This document shows, piece after piece, positions 11,705-31,160 of a stretch of 64,000 nucleotides of DNA. The position numbers and the translations under genes were made by a program. Each line of letters begins with the position of its first letter. Position 1 is the first letter of the stretch. The stretch spans positions 2,635,501 through 2,699,500 of the forward strand of contig NZ_AP014879.1 of assembly GCF_002355735.1 (NCBI RefSeq). The letters are read 5' to 3'. The stretch comes from Sulfuricaulis limicola (GTDB lineage: Bacteria > Pseudomonadota > Gammaproteobacteria > Acidiferrobacterales > Sulfurifustaceae). The notes under the pieces were generated by a model, which was given only the letters and a program-made list of their open reading frames with translations, was not told the DNA's origin and made no database searches.

Positions 11705-13057
11705 CTACAACCGCACTTCCACCGCGGCACCGCCCAGCGGGCTGCGCGAAATGACCAGCTCGCCATCATAAAGCTCAACGATTTCCTGCACCACCGCCAG
11801 CCCCAGCCCGTGTCCCGGCGTTTTGGTATCGGCGCGCGCGCCGCGGGCGCGGACGCGCTGGGCCTGATCGTCCGGAATACCGGGGCCGTCGTCCTCGATG
11901 CGCAGCGTAAAGTGCGCTCCGGACTGTCCCGCGGCCGGGTTTTGCGACTGTACCCGCACGCGCGAGCGCGCCCACTTGAAGGCATTGTCCGCGACGTTGC
12001 CCAGGATTTCGAGCAGGTCGCCCTCGTCGCCGCGGAACATCGCCTCCGGGGCAATCTCGATTTCCACGCGCAGGGCCTTGGCCGCATATACCTTTTCCAG
12101 CGCGGCCAGCAGCTTGCGCGCCGGCGGCAGGACCGGCAGCGGTACGCTCAGGACCGTGCGTCCGGCCGCGGCCGCGCGCTGCAACTGGTACTCGACGATC
12201 TCATTCATGTTCTGCAACTGCTCTTGCGCCACCGCGCGCAATTCTTCCACCGGCGCCTTCGCCTCGACGCTCCCGCGCAGCACGGCGAGCGGCGTTTTGA
12301 GACTGTGCGCCAGGTTGCCGAGCGTATCGCGGTAACGCTGCAGGTGCTGACGGGCCTGGGCCAGCAAGGCGTTGAGATTGTCGATCAAGGGCTGCAACTC
12401 CGCCGGGTAGCGTCCCGACAGCGCCTGGGCGCGGCCGGCCTCCATCTCGGACAGGTCCTGCGCCACCCGCCGCAACGGCGCCAGTCCCCAGCGCAGAATC
12501 AGTGCCTGCGCCACCAGCAGCAACAGCGTGGCCGCGGCGAGCCAGCCGAACAGGCCGCGACGGAATTGGCGGATCTGCGCCAGGTGTTCATCCAGCCGCT
12601 CCGCGACGTGAAACACATAGATTTGCGGCTCGCGACCGGCGCCTTCCCAGCGCGTGGCGAAGCTCAGCATCAGGCGCGCCGGCGCTTCGCCGTCGCCGGT
12701 TTGCGTGAACACGCGCTCGCCGGGCGCGGCAGCCGGGGAGACGCCGGCAAACTCCGCTCCCAGCGCGGAGCGCGAGCGCCAGACAGGCTCGCCCGCGGCA
12801 TCGCGCACTTCCGCCATCAAGCCCGAACCGACGAGATTGAAGCGCGGCTCGGGCAGCTCCACGGGCAATTCCAGCCGGCTGTTCGCGTCCAGATCGGCCG
12901 CGGCAAGCAGGGCATACAAGTGGCTTTGCAGACGTTCACGCAGCGCGCTCTCGGCGCTGGCGCGAAACGCCTGATCGAGCGCCAGCCCGGTCAGCCCGAG
13001 AAACCCGGCCAGCACCACGGCCGACACCAGCAACAGGCGCGCGCGCAGCGAACGCAT
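11705..13057 (-). CDS. Sensor histidine kinase, PhoQ-like
   Basis: The 450-residue kinase has an N-terminal membrane helix (RARLLLVSAVVLAGFLGLTG), a periplasmic sensor of about 130 residues, a second helix (LFGWLAAATLLLLVAQALIL), a HAMP region, and the phospho-acceptor His in GNLAHSLKTPLAVL. The ATPase domain has NVADNAFKW, DDGPGIP and GHGLGLAVV. The HSLKTPL H-box and layout resemble PhoQ. The ATG at 13057 overlaps the response-regulator stop as TGATG, indicating translational coupling; an ATG five codons upstream is possible. The stimulus is unknown. Downstream PepSY and glycine-zipper genes suggest envelope stress or divalent cations. Confidence 0.88.
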   Translation of the reverse strand: MRSLRARLLLVSAVVLAGFLGLTGLALDQAFRASAESALRERLQSHLYALLAAADLDANSRLELPVELPEPRFNLVGSGLMAEVRDAAGEPVWRSRSALGAEFAGVSPAAAPGERVFTQTGDGEAPARLMLSFATRWEGAGREPQIYVFHVAERLDEHLAQIRQFRRGLFGWLAAATLLLLVAQALILRWGLAPLRRVAQDLSEMEAGRAQALSGRYPAELQPLIDNLNALLAQARQHLQRYRDTLGNLAHSLKTPLAVLRGSVEAKAPVEELRAVAQEQLQNMNEIVEYQLQRAAAAGRTVLSVPLPVLPPARKLLAALEKVYAAKALRVEIEIAPEAMFRGDEGDLLEILGNVADNAFKWARSRVRVQSQNPAAGQSGAHFTLRIEDDGPGIPDDQAQRVRARGARADTKTPGHGLGLAVVQEIVELYDGELVISRSPLGGAAVEVRL

Positions 13058-13740
13058 CAGGGCCGTCCGCACGGGAGCGTGAAGCGGTAACCGCGGCCAC
13101 GCAGGGTTTCGATGGGCTTGAAACGGTCGTCGGGATCGAGCTTCTTGCGCAGGCGCCCGATGAATACCTCGATCACGTTGCTGTCGCGATCGAAATCCTG
13201 ATCGTAGACATGCTCGGTCAGGGTCGTCTTCGACACCACCTCGCCCGCATGCAGCATCAGATATTCCAGCACCTTGTACTCGTAGGCGGTCAGATCGAGC
13301 GCGCGCTTGTCCACGCGCACCGCCTGCGCCGCGGTGTCGAGCGTGATCGGACCGCAGCTGACCACGGGCTGCGCCAGCCCGGCGGCGCGGCGCAGCAGGG
13401 CGTTCACGCGCGCCAGCAGTTCCTCGACGTAAAACGGCTTGACCAGGTAATCGTCGGCGCCGGCCTCGAGCCCCTCGACCTTGTCCTGCCAGCGCCCGCG
13501 CGCGGTCAGGATCAGAACCGGAAAGCGCTTGTCCTGCTTGCGCCAGGCGCGGATGACCTCGATGCCGCTGATATCCGGCAAACCGATATCCACAACCGCG
13601 AGGTCGATCGGATACTCGCGCCCATGCGCCAGGCCGTCCTTGCCGGTGGCGGCGTCATCCACCGCGTGGCCCGCGGCGCGCAGCTGCTCGCACAACTGAC
13701 GACGCAGGGAGGTTTCGTCTTCGATGACGAGGAGTCGCAT
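13057..13740 (-). CDS. OmpR/PhoP-family response regulator
   Basis: This 227-residue regulator has a receiver domain with the acidic pair (VIEDE), the phospho-acceptor Asp in AVVDIGLPDISG, the conserved Thr in LILTARG and Lys in DDYLVKPF. The C-terminal winged-helix domain contains LTAYEYKVLEYLMLHAGEVVSKTTL and RLRKKLDP followed by LRGRGYRF. It is followed immediately by the kinase and preceded by a PepSY protein after 14 bp. OmpR-family proteins bind direct repeats with 10-11 bp periodicity. The 11-bp-periodic CTGAACG repeats at 14657 and 41304 are good candidates for its binding sites. Confidence 0.9.
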   Translation of the reverse strand: MRLLVIEDETSLRRQLCEQLRAAGHAVDDAATGKDGLAHGREYPIDLAVVDIGLPDISGIEVIRAWRKQDKRFPVLILTARGRWQDKVEGLEAGADDYLVKPFYVEELLARVNALLRRAAGLAQPVVSCGPITLDTAAQAVRVDKRALDLTAYEYKVLEYLMLHAGEVVSKTTLTEHVYDQDFDRDSNVIEVFIGRLRKKLDPDDRFKPIETLRGRGYRFTLPCGRP

Positions 13741-15419: not shown

Positions 15420-16307
15420 ATGGTGACACCGGCGGCGATGTTGGCCACCGCGGGATTGTTCATGATGGGGCTCGGTGTTGCACTCGCCGCGCTGCTCTCG
15501 GCTGCAAACAAAAAACTCTACGTCTACGAAGACCCGCGCATCGACGAAATCGAGGCGCTGCTGCCGCGTAATAACTGCGGCGCCTGCGGCACCGCCGGCT
15601 GTCGTGCGTTCGCCGAAGCCGCGATCCGCGGCGATATCGCGCCGGGCCAGTGCACCGTGTGCACGCCGGCGCAGGCCCAGACGATCGCCAGCCTGCTGGC
15701 CGTGACCGTGGGCGGGCAGGAAAAGCGCGTGGCGCGTATCGCCTGCGCCGGCGGCCGCCAGGTCGCCGTCAACCGCGCGTACTACGCCGGGCTGGAAAGC
15801 TGCCGCGCGGCCCACCTGGTGGCGGGCGGCGGCAAGGGCTGTGCCTGGGGCTGCCTCGGCTTCGGTGACTGCGTCGACGTGTGCGACTTCGACGCCATCT
15901 ACATGGATCCGTTCAAGCTCCCGGTCGTGTATGACGAACGTTGCATCGCGTGCAACGACTGCGTCGAAGTCTGTCCCAAGAATCTCATTTCACTCCAGAA
16001 CCAAAGCCGCAAACTCTGGGTCGCGTGCAGCAACCGTGACTTCGGTGCCGAGGCCGAGGCCCAATGCGAGGTGATCTGCAACGCCTGCGGCCGCTGCGTG
16101 GCGGACGCGCCGGCGGGACTGATAAAGATCAATGAAAGCCTCGCAGTGATCGATTACACCAAAAACGCGATGGCCGCGCGCGCGGCCATCGAGCGCTGCC
16201 CGACCGGCGCCATCGTGTGGATGGAATCCGGCGACAAAACCATCAAGGGCGGCCACGCCGCCAAAATCCTGCGCAAGGAAGCGCTGCCCGTGGAGAAAAC
16301 CCCATGA
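15420..16307 (+). CDS. rnfB: Electron transport complex subunit RnfB, polyferredoxin type
   Basis: RnfB receives electrons from ferredoxin and passes them into the Rnf complex. The 295-residue protein has an N-terminal membrane helix, a four-Cys domain (NNCGACGTAGC with a fourth Cys), and then several ferredoxin motifs: KGCAWGCLGFGDCVDVC, ERCIACNDCVEVCP and CEVICNACGRC. This extended, cluster-rich form resembles the RnfB of anaerobes more than E. coli RsxB (192 residues). The ATG at 15420 follows GGAGGA. Its stop overlaps the start of the giant oxidoreductase (ATGA), implying coupled translation. It opens the operon, whereas E. coli starts with rnfA. Confidence 0.92.
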   Translation: MVTPAAMLATAGLFMMGLGVALAALLSAANKKLYVYEDPRIDEIEALLPRNNCGACGTAGCRAFAEAAIRGDIAPGQCTVCTPAQAQTIASLLAVTVGGQEKRVARIACAGGRQVAVNRAYYAGLESCRAAHLVAGGGKGCAWGCLGFGDCVDVCDFDAIYMDPFKLPVVYDERCIACNDCVEVCPKNLISLQNQSRKLWVACSNRDFGAEAEAQCEVICNACGRCVADAPAGLIKINESLAVIDYTKNAMAARAAIERCPTGAIVWMESGDKTIKGGHAAKILRKEALPVEKTP

Positions 16308-19300
16308 CCAAGAATACAACCGATGATACTTCACGGGACATGGATGCCATGGATACGGTGGTCGACGCGGTGGTCAAGACAGGCACCCGGCGCGGGCCGT
16401 TCGCGGTTTTCCGCAAACCGCCAAAATTCAAATATCCCGGTATCCGCAAGGCGCTCGACGGCGGTGCCGCCGTGGTCATGTGCGAGCGCGAGGCCAGCGA
16501 TGCCGCCGGCGCCTACCCGATCACGCCTTCCACCCAGATGGGCGAATACTGGGCCGAGGCGGTCAGTCAGGGACACCTCAACATCTCGAACCGCCCGCTG
16601 ATCTTCATCGAGCCCGAAGGCGAACACGCCGCCGCCGGCGTGACCGCCGGACTGGCCATGAGCGGCCTGCGCGCCACGAATTTCTCCTCCGGCCAGGGCA
16701 TCGCCTATATGCACGAGTCGCTGTACGCCGCCGCCGGCAAGCGCCTGACCTACGTGCTCAACGTCGGCAGCCGCGCCATCACCAAGGCCAGCCTCAACGT
16801 GCACGCCGGTCACGACGACTATCACGCCGTGGACGACGCCGGTTTCTTCCAGCTCATGGGCAAGAACGCGCAGGAGGTGTGCGACCTGGGTCTGATCGCG
16901 CACAAGATCGCGGAACTCGCGCTTAATCCCGGGCTGGTCGCCCAGGACGGATTTCTCACCACGCACCTGATCGATTCACTGCTGCTGCCCGAACGCGAGC
17001 TGATCGCCGAGTTCCTCGGCCGGCCGGATGACCTCATCGACACGCCGACGCCGGCCCAGCGCCTGATCTTCGGCGCGCAACGCCGGCGCATACCGGCGCT
17101 GTGGGACGTGGACAATCCCATGACCTCGGGCTGCGTGCAGAACCAGGACGCCTACATGCAAGCGGTGGCGGCACAGCGGCCGTATTTCTTCGATCACATC
17201 ACGGCGCTCACCGACCGCGCCATGGCCGAGTACCATGGCCTGACCGGCCGGCGCTATCAACGCGTTCAAACCCACCGTGTCGAGGACGCCGATTATCTGA
17301 TCCTCGGTCAGGGCAGCATGGTCAGCACCGCCGAGGCCGTGGCTGACTGGCTGCGCGAACACCGGCGCCTGCGCGTGGGCGTGGTGAACCTCACCATGTT
17401 CCGTCCGTTCCCCGGCGACCTGCTGGGGGAACTGCTCAAGGGCCGCCAGGGCGTCACGGTGCTGGAACGCACCGACCAGCCGCTGGCCGAGGACCTGCCG
17501 CTGATGCGCGAAGTGCGCGCCTGCGTCGGCAAGTGCGTCGAGAACGGCCTGGCGCGCGACGGCGCGCTGCCTTACCCGGGCTACGCCGTCTACGCCAAGT
17601 CGCCGCACATCCCGCTGCTGTATTCCGGTTCGTTCGGGCTGGGCAGCCGCGACCTGCAGCCGGAGGCGATCATCGGCGCGGTCGAGAACATGCTACCCAA
17701 AGGCGCAAAGAAGAAATTTTTCTACCTGTCGATCGATTTCGCTCATCCCCGTCCCGACTCGCCGAAACAGGAGCTGCATCAACAGGCACTGCTCGATGCC
17801 TACCCGCGGATTCGCGAACTCAGCGTCCACGGCAGCGAAAACCCCAACCTCATGCCGCCGGGTTCGATCACGGCGCGCATGCACTCGGTCGGCGGCTGGG
17901 GCGCCATGACCACGGGCAAGAACCTGGCGGTGACGCTGTTCGAGCTGCTCGGCTATCACATCAAGGCCAATCCCAAGTACGGCTCGGAGAAGAAGGGCCA
18001 GCCCACGACATTCTACCTCGCGGCGGCGCCCGAGCCGATCCGCATCAACTGCGAATACACCCATGTCGACGTGGTGCTGTCGCCAGACCCGAACGTGTTC
18101 CGTTATTCCGATCCGCTGACCGGACTGCGCCGCGGCGGCGTGTTCATCATCCAGAGCGACCTGGACACGCCCGGGGCGGTGTGGCAATCGCTGCCGGCGG
18201 CGGCGCAAAAGTTCATCGTTGAGCAGGATATTCGCGTGTTCTATGTCGACGCCTTCAAAATCGCGCGCGTCGAGGCGAGCGATGCGGAGTTGCAGATGCG
18301 CATGCAGGGCAACGCGTTTCAGGGGTCGTTCTTCGCCGCCTGCGATCACGCCGGCATCGCGCGTTTTCCGGAAGCTGAATTGTTCCATGCCATCGAAGAC
18401 CAGTTGCGCGAGAAATTCGGTGGCAAGGGCGCGCACGTGGTCGAGGACAACCTGCGGGTGGTGCGGCGCGGCTATGAGGAACTGCGCGAGATCACCGACA
18501 AGACCGTGAGCCCGCCGACCGTGGTGGCCCTGCGCCAGAAACCCGCCCTGCCGACCCTGCTCAAGCGCATGCCGGCCAGCGACGATCGCCGCGCCGACAT
18601 TCATCGTTTTTGGGAACAAACCGGCCGCCTCTATACCGGCGGCGACGGCAGCGACAATCTCGCCGACCCGTTCATGGCCCTGGGCCTGATGCCGGCGGCG
18701 ACCGGCGCGTTCCGCGACATGACCCAGATCCGTTTCGAGGTTCCGCGCTGGATTCCGGAGCGCTGCACCGCCTGCGGCGATTGCTACACGGTCTGCCCGG
18801 ACAGCGCCATTCCCGGACTGGTGAACGGCATCGACGAAATCTGCGCCACCGCGATCCGGCGCATCGAGACCGGCGGCCGCCCGACGCGCCAGCTGCGCCG
18901 CGCCGTCCGCATCGTGGAGAAAAAGCTGCGCGCCGTCATTGCCGCGGCCGGCGCGGAGGTCAAGGTGCGCGTGCTGCTCGACCGGGTCATCGACGCCACG
19001 CTGGCCGAATCCGCCCTGGCGCCCGACGAGCGCGCCGGCCTGGCGCAGGAGTTCGAATGGTTTCGCGAGGCGCTGGGGGATTTCGACTTCGCCGTCACGC
19101 GGCCGTATTACCACGTCAGGGAAAAGCGCGCCGCCGGCAGCGGCGGCCTGTTCTCGCTCACGGTCAATCCGTACACCTGCAAGGGCTGCATGGAGTGCGT
19201 CGCGGTGTGCGCCGACGCCGCCCTCGAGAGCGTCAGGCAGACCCCCGAGGCCGTCGAACAATTGCGCCGGAACTGGAACACCTGGCTCGAGCTGCCGAGC

Positions 19301-21310
19301 ACCGCGCCTGACTATATCCGCATCGACGATCTCGACGCGCGCATCGGCGCGCTCGAGACGCTGCTGCTCGACAAGGCCAATTATCGTTCCATGGTCTGCG
19401 GCGACGGCGCCTGCGTCGGCTGCGGCGAGAAGACCGTGATTCATCTGTTCACCGCCACCGTCACGGCACTGATGCAGCCGCGGGTGCAACAGCACCTCGC
19501 GCATATCGACGATCTCATCGGCAAGCTCGACGCCCATATCCGCCTGAAGCTCGCCGCCGGCATGGACCTGAACGACCCCGGGGCGATCCAGGCGGCCGTC
19601 GCTTCGAGCGCCAGCCAGGACCTGACGCTGGCGCGCCTGGCCGCGCGTCTCGACGCCCGGCGCACGACCCAGCCGCTCGATCCGGAATGGCTCACACGCG
19701 TCACCGGCCTGCTCGAGAAACTCCGTGCGCTCCAGGCCCGGTACACCGCCGATGCCGACCACAACGGCCGCGCCGCGCTCGGCGTGATCAACGCCACCGG
19801 CTGCACCTCGGTGTGGGGCTCGACCTTCCCGTACAACCCCTACCCGTTCCCGTGGAGCAGCCACCTGTTCCAGGATTCGCCGTCGGTGGCCATGGGCGTG
19901 TTCTCGGGTCACATGGCCAAGATGGCCGAGGGCTTCAAGGCCATACGCAGCGCCGAACTCGAGCTTGCCGGCGAGTACGAACCGGCCAGACACGAGGCGT
20001 TTTTCGCGCGCTTCGACTGGCACCAGTTCAGCGACGCGGAGTTCCAGCTGTGCCCGCCGGTGGTGTCGATCGGCGGCGACGGCGCGATGTACGACATCGG
20101 TTTCCAGAATCTCTCGCGCATGATGATGACCGGCATGCCGATCAAGGTGCTGGTGCTCGACACCCAGGTGTACTCCAACACCGGCGGCCAGGCCTGCACC
20201 TCGGGCTTTCTCGCGCAGGTGTCCGACATGGCGCCGTTCGGCCGCGCGGGCAAGGGCAAGAGCGAGATTCGCAAGGAGATGGGTCTCATCGGCCTGGCGC
20301 ATCGCACCGCCTACGTGATGCAGGGTTCGATCGCCAACGTCACCCATCTCATCGAGAGCTACATCGAGGGCCTGAACAGCCGCCGTCCGGCGGTGTTCAA
20401 CGTCTACGCCGTGTGCCAGACGGAACACGGCGTGACCGACAATTCCGCCGCGCGTCAGAGCAAGCTGGCGCTCGAGGGGCGCGCCTATCCGCTGTTCCGT
20501 TACAACCCGGACAAGGGGGCCACGCTCAAGGAGTGCACCGATCTCGACGGCAATCCCGCGGTCGAGGCCGACTGGCCGACGTACAAGCTCGGTTACCTCG
20601 ATGAAAACGGCGCCGCGGCATCCATGGAGCTGCCCCTGACCTTCGCCGATTTCGCCTTCAGCGAGGGCCGGTTCCGCAAGCATTTCCGCCCGGCGCCGCG
20701 CGAGCTCGGCGACGACAACCTGGTGCCGCTGAGCGAATACCTCGACCTGACCGAGGATGAAATCCGCGGCCGCTTCCCGTTCCTGTGGGCGGTCGACAAG
20801 CACAACCATCTCACACGCGTGCTGGTGGCGCCGGAAATGGTGCGGGCCTGCGCCGAACGGCGCGGGTTCTGGCGGCTGCTCAAGTCGCTCGCCGGCGCCG
20901 GCAACGGCATCGACGCCGACGCCATCGCCGCCGCGGCGCGCAACGAGATGGCGCAACAGCTCGAAGCGGCGATTCATTCGATCACCGGCGATGCGCATGC
21001 CCCTGCCACGACACCGGCCACCGCCGGTGCGACGTTGCCGGCCACGACGGGCGCGGCGGCGTTCGAGCCGGTATGGATCGAGACACCGGAGTGCACCACC
21101 TGCGACGAGTGCACCACGATCAACCCCCATATCTTCGCCTACAACGACGACGAGAAGGCCGTCGTGCGCGACCCGCGCGGCGGACCGTTCCGCGACATCG
21201 TGCGCGCCGCCGAAAAATGCACCGGGCGCATCATCCATCCGGGCACGCCGGCCAACCCGAACGAGCCCGGCCTGGACAAGCTCATCCAGCGCGCGGCCAA
21301 GTATCAGTAA
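16304..21310 (+). CDS. Giant 2-oxoacid:ferredoxin oxidoreductase (PFOR-like) within the Rnf operon
   Basis: This 1,668-residue protein has the domain order of pyruvate:ferredoxin oxidoreductase: the POR N-terminal domain (DAAGAYPITPSTQMGEYW), the gamma-type domain (HSVGGWGAMTTGKNLA), two ferredoxin motifs (ERCTACGDCYTVCP from Cys821; YTCKGCMECVAVC from Cys959), and the thiamine-diphosphate domain (CGDGACVGCGEKT from Cys1032; GDGAMYDIG near 1257; YSNTGGQ). NifJ-type enzymes have about 1,170-1,200 residues. The surplus includes a helical insertion of about 100 residues inside the TPP domain and a C-terminal one-cluster ferredoxin (ECTTCDECTTINP from Cys1597) after an Ala/Thr/Pro linker. It oxidises a 2-oxoacid, substrate unknown, and probably hands electrons to RnfB. 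Confidence 0.87.
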   Translation: MTKNTTDDTSRDMDAMDTVVDAVVKTGTRRGPFAVFRKPPKFKYPGIRKALDGGAAVVMCEREASDAAGAYPITPSTQMGEYWAEAVSQGHLNISNRPLIFIEPEGEHAAAGVTAGLAMSGLRATNFSSGQGIAYMHESLYAAAGKRLTYVLNVGSRAITKASLNVHAGHDDYHAVDDAGFFQLMGKNAQEVCDLGLIAHKIAELALNPGLVAQDGFLTTHLIDSLLLPERELIAEFLGRPDDLIDTPTPAQRLIFGAQRRRIPALWDVDNPMTSGCVQNQDAYMQAVAAQRPYFFDHITALTDRAMAEYHGLTGRRYQRVQTHRVEDADYLILGQGSMVSTAEAVADWLREHRRLRVGVVNLTMFRPFPGDLLGELLKGRQGVTVLERTDQPLAEDLPLMREVRACVGKCVENGLARDGALPYPGYAVYAKSPHIPLLYSGSFGLGSRDLQPEAIIGAVENMLPKGAKKKFFYLSIDFAHPRPDSPKQELHQQALLDAYPRIRELSVHGSENPNLMPPGSITARMHSVGGWGAMTTGKNLAVTLFELLGYHIKANPKYGSEKKGQPTTFYLAAAPEPIRINCEYTHVDVVLSPDPNVFRYSDPLTGLRRGGVFIIQSDLDTPGAVWQSLPAAAQKFIVEQDIRVFYVDAFKIARVEASDAELQMRMQGNAFQGSFFAACDHAGIARFPEAELFHAIEDQLREKFGGKGAHVVEDNLRVVRRGYEELREITDKTVSPPTVVALRQKPALPTLLKRMPASDDRRADIHRFWEQTGRLYTGGDGSDNLADPFMALGLMPAATGAFRDMTQIRFEVPRWIPERCTACGDCYTVCPDSAIPGLVNGIDEICATAIRRIETGGRPTRQLRRAVRIVEKKLRAVIAAAGAEVKVRVLLDRVIDATLAESALAPDERAGLAQEFEWFREALGDFDFAVTRPYYHVREKRAAGSGGLFSLTVNPYTCKGCMECVAVCADAALESVRQTPEAVEQLRRNWNTWLELPSTAPDYIRIDDLDARIGALETLLLDKANYRSMVCGDGACVGCGEKTVIHLFTATVTALMQPRVQQHLAHIDDLIGKLDAHIRLKLAAGMDLNDPGAIQAAVASSASQDLTLARLAARLDARRTTQPLDPEWLTRVTGLLEKLRALQARYTADADHNGRAALGVINATGCTSVWGSTFPYNPYPFPWSSHLFQDSPSVAMGVFSGHMAKMAEGFKAIRSAELELAGEYEPARHEAFFARFDWHQFSDAEFQLCPPVVSIGGDGAMYDIGFQNLSRMMMTGMPIKVLVLDTQVYSNTGGQACTSGFLAQVSDMAPFGRAGKGKSEIRKEMGLIGLAHRTAYVMQGSIANVTHLIESYIEGLNSRRPAVFNVYAVCQTEHGVTDNSAARQSKLALEGRAYPLFRYNPDKGATLKECTDLDGNPAVEADWPTYKLGYLDENGAAASMELPLTFADFAFSEGRFRKHFRPAPRELGDDNLVPLSEYLDLTEDEIRGRFPFLWAVDKHNHLTRVLVAPEMVRACAERRGFWRLLKSLAGAGNGIDADAIAAAARNEMAQQLEAAIHSITGDAHAPATTPATAGATLPATTGAAAFEPVWIETPECTTCDECTTINPHIFAYNDDEKAVVRDPRGGPFRDIVRAAEKCTGRIIHPGTPANPNEPGLDKLIQRAAKYQ

Positions 21311-21326
21311 CGAACGAGGAACAACG

Positions 21327-22667
21327 ATGGCGTTTCCCGAAGCATTCACGCGCAGGACCTTCGGCCACGGCGTGCATGCGCCCGAGCACAAGGACCTGAC
21401 GCGCGAACGCCCGATCCGCCGCTTTGCCTTCGCCCCGCGTCTCACGGTGCCCCTGTCACAGCACATCGGAAAGCCGGCGGTGCCGTGCGTGCGCCCGGGC
21501 CAGGAGGTTGGACGCGGCGAACCAATCGCGCTGGCCGACGGTTTTCTCTCGGTGCCGATCCATGCGCCGGTGACGGGCGTGGTCGAGGCCATCCGGCTGA
21601 TGCCGAGCGCGCGCGGACCAAAAACCGGGGCCATTGTCATCAAGACCTATGCGGCCGACGACCAGCAAGTGCTCTACGGTGCGCCACGCACCATCGAAAA
21701 TCTGGCGCCGGCGGAACTGATTCAAGCGATTCAGGACATCGGCCTGGCGGGGCAGGGCGGCGCGGCCTTTCCGACCCACGCCAAGCTGGCGGCGGCGCGC
21801 GAGCATCACGTCGAAACGCTGATCGTGAACGGCTGCGAATGCGAGCCCTATCAAACCACCGATCACCGGCTGATGCTGGAGTGGGTGGACGATCTCATCG
21901 CTGGAATCCATTTCGCGCTGGCGGCGAGCGGCGCCCGGCGCGCCATCATCGGCGTCGAGGACAACAAGCCGGATGCGATTGACGTGTTGCGCCGGCGGCT
22001 GGCGGCGGACGCCTCGATCGCGGTCACGGCGGTCAGGACCAAATATCCGCAGGGATCGGCGGAGTTACTGATTAAAGTGCTGCTCAAGCGCGAAGTGCCG
22101 GCCGGGGGACGTTCCTACGACGTCGGCGCCGTGGTGCAGAATATCGCGACGCTGGTCATGCTCGGGCGTCTGCTGCCACCCGGCCAGGGGTTGATCGAGC
22201 GCGTGGTCACCATCACCGGCGAGGGCGTCAAACAACCCGGCAATTATCTGGTGCCGTTCGGCACGCCGCTCGGCTTCGTGCTCGAGCAGGTCGGTTTCGT
22301 GGGCGACATGAGCCGCGTGATCCTCGGCGGGCCGATGATGGGCACCGCGGTCAGCTCGCTCGACGTTCCGGTCACCAAAGCCACCACGGCGATCGTGGTG
22401 CTACCGGTGCAGCCTGCCACGGCGTCCGCGCCCAGGATGTATCCGTGCATCCGCTGCGGGCGCTGCGTCGCCGCCTGCCCCATGCATCTCAATCCTTCGC
22501 AGCTCGGTTTGCTTGCCGCCAAGCGCGAGTACCGGGCGATGCAGGAGCGGTTCCACCTGGACGCCTGCTTCGAGTGCGGCTCCTGCACCTATGTATGCCC
22601 GGCGCACATCCCGCTGGTGCAATACCTGCGCATCGCCAAGGCCCTGAACCGCGAGCAGGCAGCCTGA
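21327..22667 (+). CDS. rnfC: Electron transport complex subunit RnfC
   Basis: RnfC carries the NADH-reactive FMN site and two [4Fe-4S] clusters. The 446-residue protein has the N-terminal RnfC barrel/sandwich region (KPAVPCVRPGQEVGRGE, SVPIHAPVTGVVE), the NADH/FMN motif IGLAGQGGAAFPTHAKL, NGCECEPYQTTDHRLM, and two C-terminal ferredoxin motifs (YPCIRCGRCVAACPMHL and ACFECGSCTYVCPAHIP). It lacks the long C-terminal repeats of enterobacterial RsxC. The ATG at 21327 lies 16 bp after the oxidoreductase stop and follows GAGGAA. Confidence 0.93.
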   Translation: MAFPEAFTRRTFGHGVHAPEHKDLTRERPIRRFAFAPRLTVPLSQHIGKPAVPCVRPGQEVGRGEPIALADGFLSVPIHAPVTGVVEAIRLMPSARGPKTGAIVIKTYAADDQQVLYGAPRTIENLAPAELIQAIQDIGLAGQGGAAFPTHAKLAAAREHHVETLIVNGCECEPYQTTDHRLMLEWVDDLIAGIHFALAASGARRAIIGVEDNKPDAIDVLRRRLAADASIAVTAVRTKYPQGSAELLIKVLLKREVPAGGRSYDVGAVVQNIATLVMLGRLLPPGQGLIERVVTITGEGVKQPGNYLVPFGTPLGFVLEQVGFVGDMSRVILGGPMMGTAVSSLDVPVTKATTAIVVLPVQPATASAPRMYPCIRCGRCVAACPMHLNPSQLGLLAAKREYRAMQERFHLDACFECGSCTYVCPAHIPLVQYLRIAKALNREQAA

Positions 22668-22669
22668 CC

Positions 22670-23719
22670 ATGGCGGGACCGCCACGCATCGAGATTCGCA
22701 GCTCACCGCACCTCCATGAGGCGGTGAGCGTGGACATGATCATGCGCCACGTGGTGTATGCGCTGCTGCCGATCTGCGTGTTTGCGGTTTACCTGTTCGG
22801 GCTGAGCGCGGCGGCGCTGATCGTCACGGTGCTGGGCGCCTGCCTGCTGACCGAGCACCTGTTCAACCGCTTCGCGCAAAAGCCGAACAGCCTGGGCGAT
22901 TTCAGCGCGGTGATCACCGGCCTGCTGCTGGCGCTGACGCTGCCACCCGGATTTCCCCTGTGGATGGGCGCCACCGCCGGCGTCATCGCCATCGCGCTCG
23001 GCAAGGTGGTGTTCGGCGGCCTGGGTCAGAACGTGTTCAATCCGGCGCTGGTCGGGCGCGCCTTCGCGCAGGCGGCGTTTCCGGTGGCGATCACGTCCTG
23101 GTCGCCGGCCCTGGCCCCGGGGCGTTTCGACACGCTGCTCCCGTCCACGCTCACGCCTCCGTTCATGTTGCCGGCGGCGGCCAGCGCGGCGCCTGGCACC
23201 GTGGTGGACGCGGTCAGCAGCGCGACGCCGCTGACCCTGCAGAAATTCGACCACGTCACCACCAATACCGTGGATCTGTTTACCGGCATGACCGGCGGCT
23301 CGACCGGCGAAACCGCGGCGCTGCTGATCCTGCTGTGCGGCGCCTACCTCGCGTTGCGCCGCATGCTCGACTGGCGCATCCCGGCGGGCATGCTGGGGAG
23401 CGCCGCGGCGCTCGCCGGCGTTTTCCATTTGGCCGACCCGGCGAAATATCCCGACCCGCTGTTCACACTGTTCTCCGGCGGCCTGATGCTGGGCGCGGTG
23501 TTCATGGCCACGGACGTGGTGGCCTCGCCGCTCACACCACGCGGAGTGTGGATTTATGGAATCCTGATCGGCGTGCTGACGGTGCTGATCCGTCTCTTCG
23601 GCGGCCTGCCCGAAGGCGTCATGTACGCGATCCTGATCGGCAATGCGGCCTCGCCGCTGATCGCGGTGCTCACCCAGCCGCGCGCGTTCGGCGAAGTCAA
23701 ACGCAGGAAACCGACATGA
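22670..23719 (+). CDS. rnfD: Electron transport complex subunit RnfD
   Basis: RnfD is a polytopic membrane subunit with covalently bound FMN. The 349-residue protein shows the expected hydrophobic helices and the FMN-threonine motif as AVSSATPLT (usual form SGATxL). The PNSLGDFSAVITGLLLALTLPP segment and FGGLGQNVFNPALVGRAF are typical of RnfD/NqrB. It starts 2 bp after the rnfC stop and overlaps rnfG by 4 bp (ATGA). Confidence 0.93.
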   Translation: MAGPPRIEIRSSPHLHEAVSVDMIMRHVVYALLPICVFAVYLFGLSAAALIVTVLGACLLTEHLFNRFAQKPNSLGDFSAVITGLLLALTLPPGFPLWMGATAGVIAIALGKVVFGGLGQNVFNPALVGRAFAQAAFPVAITSWSPALAPGRFDTLLPSTLTPPFMLPAAASAAPGTVVDAVSSATPLTLQKFDHVTTNTVDLFTGMTGGSTGETAALLILLCGAYLALRRMLDWRIPAGMLGSAAALAGVFHLADPAKYPDPLFTLFSGGLMLGAVFMATDVVASPLTPRGVWIYGILIGVLTVLIRLFGGLPEGVMYAILIGNAASPLIAVLTQPRAFGEVKRRKPT

Positions 23720-24396
23720 GCGCGATGGCACCCGTGACACCGACGTCCCCGGCAAGCCGGGCGATGATCATCACGCTCGGCGGCGTGGCCCTGCTGTCCG
23801 GCTTTCTGCTGACGCTGGTCTATCAGCTGACGCTGCCCTACATCGAGGCCAACCAGCGCCTGGCGGTCGAGCGCGCGGTATTCAAAATTTATCCGCAGGC
23901 GCAAACGCGCGTCGGCGTGGTGCTCGGCGCCAACGGCCTGCGGCCGGGCGAGACCGCAGCACGGGGCGAGATTCTGGCCCACGCCGTCTATGACCAGACC
24001 GGCAAATTACACGGTCTGGTCGCCGAGGCGGCGGCGCACGGTTACGCCGGCGTGATCCGCCTGCTGTACGGCTGGTCGCCCGCGTGCCAGTGCATCACCG
24101 GCATCAGCGTGCTGCAAAGCACCGAGACCCCGGGATTCGGCGACAAGATCGCCACCGACCCGGATTTCCTCGCCAACTTCCGCGCCCTCGACGTGCGCCT
24201 CAACCCCGAGGGCAGCGCCCTGCTGCACCCCGTGGTCACGGTCAAGCACGGCACCAAGACCGGGGCCTGGCAGGTGGACGCGATCTCGGGCGCCACCATC
24301 ACCTCCAAGGCCGTGGGTCGCATGCTCAATCAAAGCGCGCAGGCGCTGCTGCCGGGCGTGGCGCGCGATCTCGATAAAATCCGGAGCAAACCATAA
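23716..24396 (+). CDS. rnfG: Electron transport complex subunit RnfG
   Basis: RnfG has one N-terminal membrane helix (MIITLGGVALLSGFLLTLVYQLT) and a periplasmic FMN-binding domain. The covalent FMN site is ISGATITSKAV, with the Thr in the S(T)GAT-x-TS motif. VLQSTETPGFGDKI is the other conserved block. At 226 residues it is of normal size. It overlaps rnfD by 4 bp and rnfE by 1 bp. Confidence 0.93.
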   Translation: MSAMAPVTPTSPASRAMIITLGGVALLSGFLLTLVYQLTLPYIEANQRLAVERAVFKIYPQAQTRVGVVLGANGLRPGETAARGEILAHAVYDQTGKLHGLVAEAAAHGYAGVIRLLYGWSPACQCITGISVLQSTETPGFGDKIATDPDFLANFRALDVRLNPEGSALLHPVVTVKHGTKTGAWQVDAISGATITSKAVGRMLNQSAQALLPGVARDLDKIRSKP

Positions 24397-25052
24397 TGGC
24401 CAACGCCCCGAAACCGGCGCCGGTGACCCTGGATACCTTCCTGGAAGGCATCTGGCGGGAGAATCCGATCTTCGTGATGATGCTCGGCATGTGCCCGACG
24501 CTGGCGGTGAGCAATTCGGTGATCAACGCCGTCGCCATGGGGATCGCCACCGCTCTGGTGCTGGTGGCCGCCGCGGCCTTTGCCTCCGTAACGCGCAAGC
24601 TGATCCCGCACCAGGTGCGGCTGGTCACCTATGTCGTCGTCATCGCCACCTTCGTGACCATCATGGACTACGTGATCCACGCCATCAGTCTCGATCTTTA
24701 CAACGCCCTCGGCGCCTTCATCCAGCTGATCGTGGTCAACACGCTCATCCTCGGGCGCGTCGAGGGCCATGCCTCCAAGCGGCCGCTGCTGCCGGCCGTG
24801 GTCAACGCCACGGGCGTGGGCGTGGGCTTCGTGCTCGGACTGTTCTGCCTGGGGGCGGTGCGCGAGCTGCTCGGCAACGGGAGCTTCGCCGGATGGCCGG
24901 TCTTCGGACCGGACTTTCAGCCGTGGCTGGTGATGATGCTGCCGCCGGGCGGATTCTTCGTGCTCGGTGCCTGGCTGCTGCTGCTCAACGGGATCAAGGC
25001 GCGCGGCGCGCGCCGTGTCGCCGAAAAGGAGGCCACCGATGGGATCGGATGA
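24396..25052 (+). CDS. rnfE: Electron transport complex subunit RnfE
   Basis: RnfE is one of two homologous six-helix subunits that together hold an intramembrane [2Fe-2S] cluster with RnfA. The 218-residue protein has the first half-site Cys in NPIFVMMLGMCPTLAVSNS. The second expected Cys, in the motif usually written TNC(I/L)xxGR, is Thr here (LIVVNTLILGR, codon ACG). A Cys further on (GLFCLGAVREL) is also seen in other RnfE proteins. The start ATG overlaps the rnfG TAA by one base. Apart from the missing Cys, length and helices are normal. Confidence 0.9.
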   Translation: MANAPKPAPVTLDTFLEGIWRENPIFVMMLGMCPTLAVSNSVINAVAMGIATALVLVAAAAFASVTRKLIPHQVRLVTYVVVIATFVTIMDYVIHAISLDLYNALGAFIQLIVVNTLILGRVEGHASKRPLLPAVVNATGVGVGFVLGLFCLGAVRELLGNGSFAGWPVFGPDFQPWLVMMLPPGGFFVLGAWLLLLNGIKARGARRVAEKEATDGIG

Positions 25053-25623
25053 ATCGCTGTGGACCATTTTCATCAATGCCATGCTGGTCAACAATTTCGT
25101 CCTGAGCCTGTTTCTCGGCCTGTGTTCCTACCTGGGCGTGTCCGCCCGGTACAACACCGCGTTGCCGATGGGCATCGCGGTCACGTTCGTGATGGTGGTG
25201 GGATCGCTGTGCGCCTACGCCCTCAACCTGATACTGATCTATTTCGATCTCGAGTTCCTGCGGCTCATCAGTTACATCGTGGTCATCGCCTCCACGGTGC
25301 AGCTGGTCGAGATGGTGATGAAGAAGTACGTCCCGGCGGTGTTCCGCGCGCTCGGGATTTATCTGCCGCTGATCGCCACCAACTGCGTGGTGCTGGCACC
25401 GCCGCTGTTCCAGACCGCGCGCGGCTACGACCTGGTGCAATCGCTGGTCTTCAGCTTCGGGGCGGGTTGCGGTTACATCCTGGCGATCGTGCTGCTGGCG
25501 GGCCTGCGCGAACGGCTGCAGCTCGCGAATGTGCCCGCCCTGGCCCAGGGCGGCGCCCTGACCGTGATACTGGCCGGCTTCCTGTCGCTCGCGTTCATGG
25601 GCTTCGCCGGCCTGGGAGGATAA
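25039..25623 (+). CDS. rnfA: Electron transport complex subunit RnfA
   Basis: RnfA pairs with RnfE in the membrane core. The 194-residue protein matches E. coli RnfA (193). Both cluster cysteines are present, in NNFVLSLFLGLCSYLGVS and IATNCVVLAPPLF. The ATG at 25039 follows AAGGAGG inside the end of rnfE, giving a 14-bp overlap. It is the last canonical rnf gene; a small four-cysteine protein follows after 4 bp. Confidence 0.93.
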   Translation: MGSDESLWTIFINAMLVNNFVLSLFLGLCSYLGVSARYNTALPMGIAVTFVMVVGSLCAYALNLILIYFDLEFLRLISYIVVIASTVQLVEMVMKKYVPAVFRALGIYLPLIATNCVVLAPPLFQTARGYDLVQSLVFSFGAGCGYILAIVLLAGLRERLQLANVPALAQGGALTVILAGFLSLAFMGFAGLGG

Positions 25624-25627
25624 ACCG

Positions 25628-25840
25628 ATGCTGCTGCGCTACCTGATTCCCGTTGCCATCATTTTGGTGCTGCTGCTGGGATGGGTCCTGGTACAGCATC
25701 TCGCGCGTCGCTATGCGGCGCGCCACCCGGAATTCGGACCCGCGCGCGAGGAGGGTCTGGGCTGCGACGGGGGCTGCGGCTGCCAGGCCCGACACTGCGA
25801 ACGCGAAAAACACCAGCACGTATCACGCCCGACAAGTTAA
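25628..25840 (+). CDS. Small membrane protein with four cysteines, NqrM-like
   Basis: The 70-residue protein has one N-terminal membrane helix (LIPVAIILVLLLGWVLVQHL), a short basic stretch and a cysteine knot GLGCDGGCGCQARHC, i.e. C-x3-C-x-C-x4-C. It starts 4 bp after rnfA with a GGAGG ribosome-binding site, so it belongs to the operon. NqrM (DUF539), needed to mature the Fe centre of Na+-NQR, is also a single-helix protein with four cysteines ending in a CxCx3C-type motif. RnfA/RnfE are homologues of NqrE/NqrD, so a matching role here is plausible. The last 4 bp overlap the convergent MFS gene. Confidence 0.72.
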   Translation: MLLRYLIPVAIILVLLLGWVLVQHLARRYAARHPEFGPAREEGLGCDGGCGCQARHCEREKHQHVSRPTS

Positions 25841-27266: not shown

Positions 27267-30200
27267 ATGAAGTCCATTTCCCCGAACCCGGCGGCGCCCG
27301 GCGACATCAGCGAGGCGCTTTCCAGCCGCCGCATCCGCGAGATTCCGTACAACTACACCTCGTTCTCCGACCGCGAGATCGTCATCCGCTTTCTCGGCGA
27401 GGAAACCTGGCGGGTGCTCGATACCCTGCGCGGGCAGCGCCGCACCGGGCGCTCGGCGCGCATGCTGTTCGAGGTGCTGGGCGACATGTGGGTCATCACG
27501 CGCAACCCGTTCATCCAGGATGACCTGATGGAGAACCCGAAACGCTGGGAGTCGCTCACGCACGCGCTGCATCACCGCCTCGACCAGATCCTGGCGCGCG
27601 CCGAGGGCAACGAACTCGCACTCCGGCTCGAGGGCGCGGCGCGCATGGCGGTGCGCCGCTTCGAGGCCTGGCTGCCGGCGCAGAAAGAACTGCGCCGCAA
27701 GGCAGTGAAACGATTGGCCAGGGTCACCCGCCGCGACAACATCGGCTTCGACGGCATGGCGCGCGTGTCGCACGTCACCGACGCCAGCGACTGGCGCGTC
27801 GAGCTGCCGTTCGTGGTCATCACGCCCGACACCGAGGACGAAGTGGTGCACATCGTGCGCGCCTGCATCGACCTCGGGCTCACCATCATTCCGCGCGGCG
27901 GTGGCACCGGCTACACCGGCAGCGCCGTGCCGCTGTTCGCCGATACCGCCATCATCAACACCGAAAAGCTCGAAGCCCTGGGCGCGGTCGAAATGCGCGC
28001 CCTGCCCGGCGTGGCGCAACCGGTGCCGGCCGTGCGCGGCGAGGCCGGCGTGGTCACGCGGCGCGTCGCGGACATGGCGGGACGATCGGGCTACGTGTTC
28101 GCGGTCGATCCGACCTCGCAGGACGCCTCCACCCTCGGCGGCAACGTCGCCATGAACGCCGGCGGCAAGAAGGCGGTGCGCTGGGGCACGACGCTCGACA
28201 ACCTCGCCTCGTGGCGCATGGTCACGCCGGACGCGCAGTGGCTCGAGGTCGAGCGTCTCGAGCACAACCTCGGCAAGATCCACGAGCAGGAAACGGTGCG
28301 CTTCCGCCTCACCCGTTACGCCGCCGACGGCCGCACGCGCGTCGGCGAACCGGCGGAACTGAAAATGCCCGGGCGCGAACTGCGCAAGCCCGGACTCGGC
28401 AAGGACGTCACCTCCAAGTTCCTCGGCGGGCTGCCGGGCGTGCAGAAGGAAGGCTGCGACGGCATCATCACCTCGGCGGTGTTCGTGCTGCACCGCCAGT
28501 CGCGCTTCCTGCGCACCGTGTGCCTGGAATTCTTCGGCGCCGACATCACGCCGGCGGTGGCGGCAATCGTGGAGATAAAGCGCCACGTTGACGGCGAACC
28601 CGGCGTGGCGCTGGCGGGCCTCGAGCACCTCGACGAACGTTACGTCAAGGCGGTGAACTACAGCACCAAGGCGGCGCGGCGCGAGCGGCCGAAGATGGTG
28701 CTGCTGGCGGACATCGCCGGCGACGACGAGGACGCCGTGGCGCGCGCCGCCGCGCACGTGGTGCAACTGGCAAACCGGCGCGACGGCGAGGGTTTCATCG
28801 CCGTGAGCCCCGAGGCGCGCGCCCGCTTCTGGGCCGACCGCGCGCGCACCGCGGCGATCGCCACCCATACCAACGCCTTCAAGATCAACGAGGACGTGGT
28901 CATCCCGCTGGAACGGCTGGCCGACTACAGCCGCGGCATCGACCGCATCAACATCGAGCAATCCACGCAAAACAAACTCAAAATGCTCGACGCGGTGCTC
29001 GACTACCTGGCCGGCGACATGCCGGAGCTGCACACGGGCACCGAGGCCGAGCGCAGCGCCGAAGGCGACGCCATCCTCGAAGCCAAGAAACACGACGCCC
29101 GCCGGCACCTGACCGAGGTGCGCACGCGCTGGCGCGCGATCCTGGCGAACCTCGATGCCGACGCGGCGACCAACGGCGCCGCGCTCGATGACGCCGAGCG
29201 CGCGAAAATCCGCCCCGGCGACAGCTTTTTCGATCTGTTGCAGCGGCACGATGTCCGCATCTCCTACCGCCGCGAGGTGGAACGGCCGCTCAAGACCATT
29301 TTCCTCGGCGGCGAGCTCGAGGGCGTACGCCGCCGGCTGGACGAGATCCACGCCGGGCTGCGCGCCAGCCGGCTGTTCGTGGCGCTGCACATGCATGCCG
29401 GCGACGGCAACGTGCACACCAACATCCCGGTGTTCTCCAACGACTACGCCATGCTGCAGGAGGCGCACCGCATCGTCGATCGCGTGATGCGTCTCGCGGT
29501 GTCGCTCGGCGGCGTGATCTCGGGCGAGCACGGCATCGGCCTCACCAAGCTGCACTGGCTCGATGCCCCGGAACTCGAGGCGTTCGCGCGCTACAAGCAC
29601 GCCATCGACCCCGACGGCCATTTCAATCGCGGCAAGCTGCTGCCGGGCGCGACTCTCGACGGAGCGTACACACCGTCGCTGCGACTGGTGGAGCAGGAGG
29701 CGCTGATCCTGGAAGCGAGCGAGCTGGGCGCGCTCAACGACGAGATCAAGCACTGCCTGCGTTGCGGCAAGTGCAAACCGGTATGCAACACGCACGTGCC
29801 GCGCGCCAACCTGCTGTACTCGCCGCGCAACAAGATTCTGGCCGCCGGCCTCATCATCGAGGCGTTCCTGTACGAGGAGCAGACGCGCCGCGGCATCTCG
29901 ATCCGCCACTTCGACGAGATGAACGACGTCGCCGACCACTGCACCGTGTGCCACAAGTGCGAAAAGCCCTGCCCGGTGGACATCGACTTCGGCGACGTCA
30001 CGATCCACATGCGCAACCTGCTGCGCGCCCGCGGCAAGAAACGCCTGAGCCTCGGCACCCGGGCGTCGCTGGCGTTCCTCAACGTCACCGATCCGGCGAC
30101 CATCAAGCTGATGCGCCGCTTCCTGATCGGCTGGGGCTACAAGGCGCAGCGCCTCGGTTACGCCCTGCTGAGCAAGCCGTTCGCGCGCCGCGAGTCGCAC

Positions 30201-31160
30201 CCGACCACCACCGTCGGCACCACCTCGGTGGTCGCGCAGGTCGTGCATTTCGTGAAGCGTCCGCTGCCGCCGGGTCTGCCGTCGCAGACCATGCGTGCAT
30301 TTCTCGGCGTCGAGGACAGCAAGCAGGTCGCCATCGTGCGCGACCCGCGCAAGGCCAACGACGAATCGGAGGCGGTGTTCTATTTCCCCGGCTGCGGCTC
30401 GGAACGGCTGTTCAGCCAGATCGGCCTGGCCACGCTCGCCATGCTCTACGAGACCGGGGCGCAGACGGTGCTGCCGCCGGGCTATCTGTGCTGCGGCTAC
30501 CCGCAGACCGCGGGCGGCGACGCCAAAAAGGGCGACCAGATTTCGACCGACAACCAGGTGCTGTTCCACCGCGTCGCCAACACGCTCAACTATCTCGATA
30601 TCAAGACCGTGATCGTGTCCTGCGGCACCTGCATGGACCAGCTGCTGCGCTACCAGTTCGGCAAGATCTTTCCCGGCTGCCGCCTGCTCGACATCCACGA
30701 ATACCTGATGGAAAAGGGCGTGAAGCTCGAAGGCGTGCCGGGCGTGAAATACCTGTACCACGATCCCTGCCACACGCCGATGAAGACCCACGCGCCGATC
30801 AAGGTGGCCGCGGCGTTAATGGGGCAGGAGGTGCTGCTCTCCGACCGCTGCTGCGGTGAGGCCGGCACCTTCGCGGTGTCGCGCCCGGATATCGCCACGC
30901 AGGTGCGTTTCCGCAAGGAAGAAGAGATACACAAGGGCATCGCGCAGCTGACCGGCGAACCCCGCGCCCGCGACGGCAACGTGAAAATGCTCACCTCCTG
31001 CCCGGCCTGCCAGCAGGGATTGGCGCGCTACGCCGACAGCACCGGGCTCGACACCGACTACATCGTGGTCGAACTGGCGCGGCTGAAGATGGGCGAAACC
31101 TGGGCACAGGATTTCATCGCCCGGGCAAAACAGGGCGGCATCGAGCACGTGCTTCTATAA
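27267..31160 (+). CDS. DUF3683/FAD-linked/Fe-S oxidoreductase (D-lactate-dehydrogenase-like)
   Basis: The 1,297-residue protein combines four parts. An N-terminal DUF3683-like region ([22 protein letters not shown]) comes first. The VAO-type FAD domain follows ([62 protein letters not shown]). Two ferredoxin motifs ([12 protein letters not shown] and [13 protein letters not shown]) lead to two CCG domains ([11 protein letters not shown]...[15 protein letters not shown]...RCCGEAG). This resembles fused glycolate oxidase (GlcD-GlcF) or D-lactate dehydrogenase (Dld) enzymes that oxidise 2-hydroxy acids to 2-oxoacids. The substrate is inferred. It lies beside the Rnf/2-oxoacid oxidoreductase operon. 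Confidence 0.85.

Follow-up and report, generated by a model that had tools for sequence, protein, structure and literature searches.

A giant PFOR-like enzyme with a tethered ferredoxin domain, encoded within an rnf operon of Sulfuricaulis limicola, is probably a dedicated electron partner of RnfB

In a 64,000-nucleotide stretch of the genome of the sulfur-oxidising bacterium Sulfuricaulis limicola (contig NZ_AP014879.1, positions 2,635,501 to 2,699,500; here called the window and numbered from its first base), the gene for a giant 2-oxoacid oxidoreductase (POR) that resembles pyruvate:ferredoxin oxidoreductase (PFOR) is embedded in an rnf operon between rnfB and rnfC. The operon probably encodes a dedicated Rnf variant, in which this enzyme, complete as a PFOR type and carrying a ferredoxin on a tether, would serve as the electron partner of RnfB. 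A physically linked path from 2-oxoacid to Rnf had been proposed in the original prediction; a dedicated path is well supported by the linkage of the genes, the tethered ferredoxin, a cluster site missing from RnfB and related operons with a seemingly dead POR. Because of the altered RnfB and the dead-POR operons, we regard a dedicated and probably direct electron path as the best reading. The operon comprises the following features:

15420-16307, + strand: rnfB, 295 amino acids (aa), with a transmembrane helix, an FeS domain and ferredoxin-like segments
16304-21310, + strand: giant PFOR-like 2-oxoacid oxidoreductase (POR), 1668 aa, with ligand sets for four [4Fe-4S] clusters
20957-21064, + strand: linker of POR (residues 1552-1587), variable in length and of low predicted local distance difference test (pLDDT) score in the AlphaFold2 (AF2) model
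21065-21307, + strand: C-terminal single-[4Fe-4S] ferredoxin domain of POR (residues 1588-1668), resembling Desulfovibrio africanus ferredoxin I
21327-22667, + strand: rnfC, 446 aa
22670-23719, + strand: rnfD, 349 aa
23716-24396, + strand: rnfG, 226 aa, with an FMN-binding domain
24396-25052, + strand: rnfE, 218 aa
25039-25623, + strand: rnfA, 194 aa
25628-25840, + strand: gene for a 70-aa Cys protein with an apparent single transmembrane helix and a Cys-rich tail

The gene order and the coordinates had been predicted correctly. The stop/start overlaps or very short gaps that had been claimed were also found: from rnfB to the gene for the 70-aa protein, successive genes are spaced by -4, 16, 2, -4, -1, -14, and 4 bases, the overlap of rnfB with the POR gene being ATGA. 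All six Rnf subunits (RnfA, B, C, D, E, and G) are encoded together. RnfB, RnfC, and RnfD passed the NCBIfam subfamily cut-offs, and RnfA scored just under its own (226.6 versus 229.3 bits). RnfE was just under the TIGR cut-off (205.9 versus 213.4 bits) and passed NF009070, while RnfG, in which the Pfam FMN-binding domain is present, remained under its cut-off (85.7 versus 102 bits).

A profile search of POR returned the domains POR_N, PFOR_II, POR, 4Fe-4S, TPP_enzyme_C, and a C-terminal Fer4_13, and the single-chain domain set of PFOR (NifJ type) is present. We call the enzyme PFOR-like and do not file it as a PFOR equivalog because it scored 401.5 bits against the TIGR02176 cut-off of 911.35 bits. 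PFOR supplied both the best profile match and the best matches in the PDB, and fold searches with Foldseek and VIA-align led to PFOR as well (best VIA-align row 6cin_B, Z 28.4, 4.3 Å over 474 residues). Conservation was followed across 92 orthologues, all distinct (one pair is 98% alike), with repeat loci (L003, L033, L034, L050, and L062) and sequences shorter than 1600 aa left out. The thiamine pyrophosphate (TPP) motif and the ligands of the three PFOR [4Fe-4S] clusters are present in the S. limicola enzyme and invariant in all 92. Residue by residue, T74, E107, R157, D1259, and N1292 and the cluster cysteines C821/824/827/831, C959/962/965/969, C1037/1040/1167/1371, and C1597/1600/1603 are kept in all 92; C1639 is kept in 91, and the remaining sequence has a gap there. 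Homodimeric PFORs (Moorella 6cin and D. africanus 1b0p/7plm) share with POR the order of domains, the TPP site and the sites of three clusters. POR differs from them in being approximately 440 to 500 aa longer, with two inserts of about 100 aa each (about residues 846-945 and 1057-1157), a linker and a fused ferredoxin, and in being encoded in an rnf operon. At one locus (L036:9637-14379), the POR of genome G041 matches piecewise in more than one frame, which may be a sequencing error.

The C-terminal ferredoxin domain claimed for the enzyme was borne out by the Fer4_13 match and by two further searches. Foldseek aligned the domain with 1fxr (TM-score 0.85 by target, 0.8 Å, E 0.07), and phmmer matched it to D. 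africanus ferredoxin I (E 0.001), which is the partner of PFOR in D. africanus. The linker before the domain measures 24 to 75 aa in relatives and is composed of 25% Ala, 16% Gly, and 10% Ser. An AF2 model of POR residues 745-1668, built from 60 sequences, reached a mean pLDDT of 79 and a predicted TM-score of 0.82, with pLDDT values below 50 across linker residues 1562-1584. According to this model, the ferredoxin domain hangs on a disordered linker.

We then refer to rnf operons with a live-type POR as type I. Linkage was scored in 80 type I loci, the best 80 of 568 confirmed, a sample biased to close relatives. In 74 of them, rnfB lies directly upstream of POR; three loci are cut by contig ends, and three have no rnfB there. 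Downstream, rnfC follows in 69 loci, is contig-cut in 11 and is absent from none. Among the 44 loci long enough to tell, rnfD, rnfG, rnfE, and rnfA were located in 43 apiece; the 70-aa Cys protein has a homologue after rnfC in 28. Since the same order recurs in dozens of genomes, chance juxtaposition is excluded. The rnfB-POR-rnfC pattern also holds in further genomes outside the 80 loci. The 80 loci include those of Thiocapsa roseopersicina and Marichromatium gracile. Isolates with the operon include members of Ectothiorhodospira, Thiorhodospira, Halorhodospira, Thiocapsa, Marichromatium, Allochromatium, Sedimenticola, Sulfurisoma, and Rhodoferax; metagenome-assembled genomes (MAGs) with the operon are labelled Acidobacteria, Verrucomicrobia, Calditrichaeota, Hydrogenedentota, Bacteroidetes, Myxococcota, and others, labels that can be wrong for MAGs.

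An enzyme unlinked to rnf in relatives would have spoken against the original prediction. For the most part this was not observed: full-length enzymes of the window type were nearly always linked and the unlinked ones were shorter, with one possible exception (G092, described below). Relatives away from rnf, about 44% identical, are encoded in one or two open reading frames and gave no ferredoxin-domain match (6 + 3 loci). S. variabilis (G011) has such a shorter, unlinked-type POR and no rnfC at E 1e-60. POR-type matches of all kinds together reached E 1e-60 or better in 35 of 370 genomes, and rnfC was found in 198 of 342 genomes of the class. The distribution of POR is patchy, since the full-length enzyme is absent from the eight other genomes of the genus, some of them incomplete (G005 gave one weak match, 3e-4). 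In the S. limicola genome itself (2,864,672 bp, one contig), the POR of the operon is the only POR_N match over the cut-off, a second match of 21.6 bits lying below it. A single rnfC match reached E 1e-60 or better, and the RnfA family gave two matches, both within the operon (rnfA and rnfE).

RnfB of S. limicola matches the Clostridium tetanomorphum subunit (7zc6_B) over residues 13-269. All 86 type I rows and all 14 rows from the type II operons described below lack four cysteines of the latter (fragment positions 218, 237, 240, and 243); the rows counted are distinct, have 220 or more aligned residues and are the best of their locus. Apart from Cys 73 and Cys 101, taken up below, all other C. 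tetanomorphum RnfB cysteines are kept in 84 to 86 of the 86 type I rows and in 14/14 type II rows. By the usual two-cluster ferredoxin pattern, the four missing cysteines would together bind one [4Fe-4S] cluster in the last ferredoxin segment. Canonical Rnf (C. tetanomorphum 7zc6 and Acetobacterium woodii 9eri) has the six subunits in common with the POR operons, whose RnfB differs by lacking these four residues. All four are present in five canonical long RnfB proteins, namely, those of C. tetanomorphum, A. woodii, and three Bacteroidia. The latter belong to a set of six Bacteroidia RnfB that 80 genomes yielded. Three of the six have the full four cysteines, with rnfC directly after rnfB (L260-L262); the other three have none of the four. 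Two of these lie between POR-like genes on both sides (L258 and L259), and the third (L257) is the type I cluster of L127.

S. limicola RnfB does not carry the full cluster set of the long C. tetanomorphum protein. We keep it within Rnf because the size of RnfB varies widely with the number of ferredoxin modules, as stated in the available part of a structural report (PMC9588780). According to the same part, electrons in C. tetanomorphum enter RnfB at the most membrane-distant cluster of the FdII-FdIII domain, delivered either by soluble ferredoxin or by a ferredoxin-like domain that belongs to a larger complex (PMC9588780). The missing cluster is probably the outermost one, because the loss of an inner cluster would break the electron chain.

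A second operon form (type II) has the order korA, korB, p840, rnfB, pPOR, rnfC and onward. It was found at 14 loci (L043, L155-L163, L165, and L254-L256), of which 11 come from genomes of the class, 2 from Calditrichota-labelled MAGs, and 1 from a gammaproteobacterial MAG. The first five genes are present at all 14 loci and rnfC at 13 (L163 is contig-cut); rnfD, rnfG, rnfE, and rnfA occur at 12 and were not found in L255. At five loci sucC-sucD lies between pPOR and rnfC, and at five mdh follows rnfA. In 14/14 loci, pPOR is without the four proximal-cluster cysteines and the YSNTGGQ motif, and in 13 it keeps both CxxCxxCxxxC (medial) motifs (the exception is L255). The four ferredoxin cysteines of p840 are likewise kept in 13/14; in L043 the stretch lies in another frame. 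Because the proximal-cluster cysteines and the YSNTGGQ motif are lost, we infer that pPOR and p840 are catalytically dead. KorA of L160 scored over the TIGR03710 cut-off and has the Magnetococcus 2-oxoglutarate:ferredoxin oxidoreductase as its nearest PDB match, while KorB was under its cut-off. Operons whose POR appears dead thus bring a different oxidoreductase and, for the most part, still have the POR-derived clusters. In a tree of 73 RnfC rows, which took in only the even-numbered of the 80 type I loci and whose bootstrap had not settled, type I RnfC formed one clade (100/97) that was sister to type II, and both stood apart from 30 canonical gammaproteobacterial RnfC proteins (100/100). 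One row labelled canonical yet placed inside type II (L114) is part of the L254 type II operon.

A third arrangement comprises korA, korB, a p840-like protein with a C-terminal ferredoxin motif and a flavoprotein of about 500 aa, presumably GltD-like to judge from the start of its sequence (L047:6402-13113 and L166:7661-14449); no rnf gene was found within the 16- to 20-kb stretches examined. Possibly, p840 is a module of general use that connects KorAB with NAD(P)H modules.

In the dedicated Rnf variant that we propose, electrons would pass along a chain made up of the TPP centre, the three clusters of the PFOR type, the tethered ferredoxin, RnfB with its shortened set of clusters, and RnfC-bound NAD(H), and their transfer would be coupled to ion transport. 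The tethered ferredoxin would replace both soluble ferredoxin and the missing, probably outermost, RnfB cluster. More tentatively, and with confidence only a little short of even, we suggest an Rnf class spread over several phyla, in which the outermost cluster of RnfB has been lost and a POR-derived module that carries a tethered ferredoxin is permanently docked in its place. The type I module would be a live pyruvate enzyme; the type II module would be a dead POR pair (p840 and pPOR) acting as a wire from KorAB, with succinyl-CoA synthetase and malate dehydrogenase genes at some loci. Such complexes could be ion-gradient-run, CO2-fixing pyruvate or 2-oxoglutarate synthases that work without free ferredoxin.

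It is rather unlikely that POR uses ordinary soluble ferredoxin, with its place in the operon reflecting co-regulation only and the C-terminal domain being a built-in carrier. An FNR-like (PetH/BoxA-like) gene, which follows the operon in 30 of the 80 type I loci (e.g., L106:19857-20945) and stands downstream in 27 of the 47 with enough sequence, would suit this explanation, as would the possibly unlinked enzyme of G092; one representative of the FNR-like genes was typed and fell under the NCBIfam cut-offs. The explanation predicts neither the missing RnfB cluster site in POR operons nor the retention of a dead POR with its cluster motifs. Several observations do weigh against a dedicated partnership with RnfB. 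The FNR-like gene means that a soluble ferredoxin pool may also be served. In G092, rnfB precedes the start of POR on one contig, and the end of POR lies on another with no rnfC within 18 kb, the two parts being assumed to form one gene. In 3 of the 77 testable type I loci, rnfB is not directly upstream (L093, L125, and L127), and in L127, as in G277 from outside the 80 loci, it comes after rnfA. By sequence, the four cysteines could belong to either of two RnfB clusters, and the comparison set of canonical long RnfB numbers five only. Cys 73 and Cys 101 are missing too (both are kept in 0/86 type I rows; among the 14 type II rows, Cys 73 is kept in none and Cys 101 in one); canonical Bacteroidia RnfB also vary there, lacking Cys 73 in 3/3 and Cys 101 in 1/3. 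Mirror-tree correlations were rejected as support for a POR-RnfB contact: POR distances correlate with those of RnfB, C, and D (r 0.82-0.84), RnfE (0.74), and RnfA (0.70), values no higher than among the Rnf subunits B, C, and D themselves, and therefore indicate co-inheritance only. Finally, pyruvate dehydrogenase E1 and 2-oxoglutarate dehydrogenase E1 are over the cut-off in the S. limicola genome, so that POR is not needed for aerobic oxidation.

The substrate of POR is most likely pyruvate. Another 2-oxoacid (2-oxoglutarate, branched-chain or aryl) is unlikely: the score far under the PFOR equivalog cut-off and the 2-oxoglutarate-type enzyme of the type II operons would fit it, whereas the best profile and PDB matches are PFOR, and the Thr and Arg aligned with what we take to be the pyruvate carboxylate ligands of PFOR are invariant. 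A supply of low-potential electrons to nitrogenase, as by Rnf in Rhodobacter, is highly improbable. Many purple sulfur bacteria are diazotrophs; in the S. limicola genome, however, no convincing NifH was found: the best PF00142 match (28.1 bits over 37 positions) only just passes the 25-bit cut-off, which the family also passes in 13 of 14 control genomes.

For the dedicated Rnf-POR pair, the reductive direction, in which NADH and ion-motive force would make pyruvate from acetyl-CoA and CO2, is slightly favoured in S. limicola, since strain HA5T is an aerobic autotroph using bicarbonate as carbon source according to the accessible part of its description (PMC5024460) and has pyruvate dehydrogenase. 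The FNR-like gene, the presence of sucCD and mdh at some type II loci, and a CbbR-like LysR regulator in L043 (best match CbbR, under the cut-off) argue for the same direction. The opposite is quite possible, if somewhat short of probable: at low oxygen, pyruvate would be converted to acetyl-CoA while Rnf makes NADH and pumps ions out, which is compatible with a dedicated partnership. Coupling of PFOR to Rnf is well known in fermenters. Pyruvate has also been suggested as electron donor for the Rnf of the Solemya velum symbiont in the part of that genome report available (PMC4287430). Aerobic growth on bicarbonate and the pyruvate dehydrogenase E1 of S. limicola count against oxidation, although use at low oxygen is still compatible with them.

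Where the low-potential electrons of 2-oxoacid oxidoreductases come from, or go to, in sulfur bacteria would be answered, for the carriers of the operon, by a hard-wired Rnf-POR unit. To our knowledge, it would be the first Rnf to trade soluble ferredoxin for a built-in partner. Precise tests could start from the four cysteines that RnfB lacks, from a tether that can be deleted, and from the dead enzyme as a natural control. The original prediction was wrong in holding that known Rnf operons do not normally contain the oxidoreductase, as one such operon is in print: the rnf2 operon of the Solemya velum gill symbiont has PFOR between rnfB2 and rnfC2 (Dmytrenko 2014, PMC4287430). This is the same arrangement as in S. 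limicola, and type I locus L116 bears the name of the symbiont. In the portion of the text available, the account is one sentence, with nothing on anatomy, breadth, RnfB clusters or a type II form (PMC4287430). Among the literature searched, as available in part and with supplements not covered, the rnfB-PFOR-rnfC order appeared in that paper only, and the type II order was not stated; earlier mentions may exist. The bare arrangement is thus already known for one genome, while the altered RnfB and the dead-POR operons were not found in the literature searched. Direct electron delivery to a 2-oxoacid oxidoreductase has likewise been proposed for reductive tricarboxylic acid cycle clusters with flx-hdr, korABCD, and rnf in tubeworm symbionts and Thioflavicoccus; in the available parts of these reports, delivery differs in going via Flx-Hdr, and no POR between rnfB and rnfC is described (PMC6315080, PMC11636981). 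One of them, from 2024, counts RNF and OGOR/PFOR isoforms of the Riftia symbiont among the genes whose in vivo function or direction is not known and, in the same available part, has a "PFOR-like" gene and a dimeric korAB fall together under sulfide limitation (PMC11636981). This pair could be of type II.

Among the neighbours of the 80 type I loci, a gene that we take, from its sequence, to be PPDK-like stands beside POR in L127 only, with one further match in L118 at 24% identity; korAB-like genes occur in L115 only, at 32 to 33% identity. A LysR-family regulator is present in 20 of the 80 (e.g., L105:7821-8867): in 18 it is encoded upstream on the opposite strand (about 8 kb distant in L076), and in the other 2 downstream on the + strand. 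The 70-aa Cys protein had no family match over the cut-off. NqrM (PF04400) was not among the matches of seven of its homologues at E 10, nor in the S. limicola genome, and the control genomes were likewise without a match. Going upstream from the operon, the first genes recognised within the window are a histidine kinase and response regulator pair on the opposite strand (11705-13740, - strand). Downstream (27267-31160), a 1297-aa protein with FAD-linked oxidase, 4Fe-4S, CCG, DUF3683, and DUF3400 domains is encoded, adjoining an MFS transporter.

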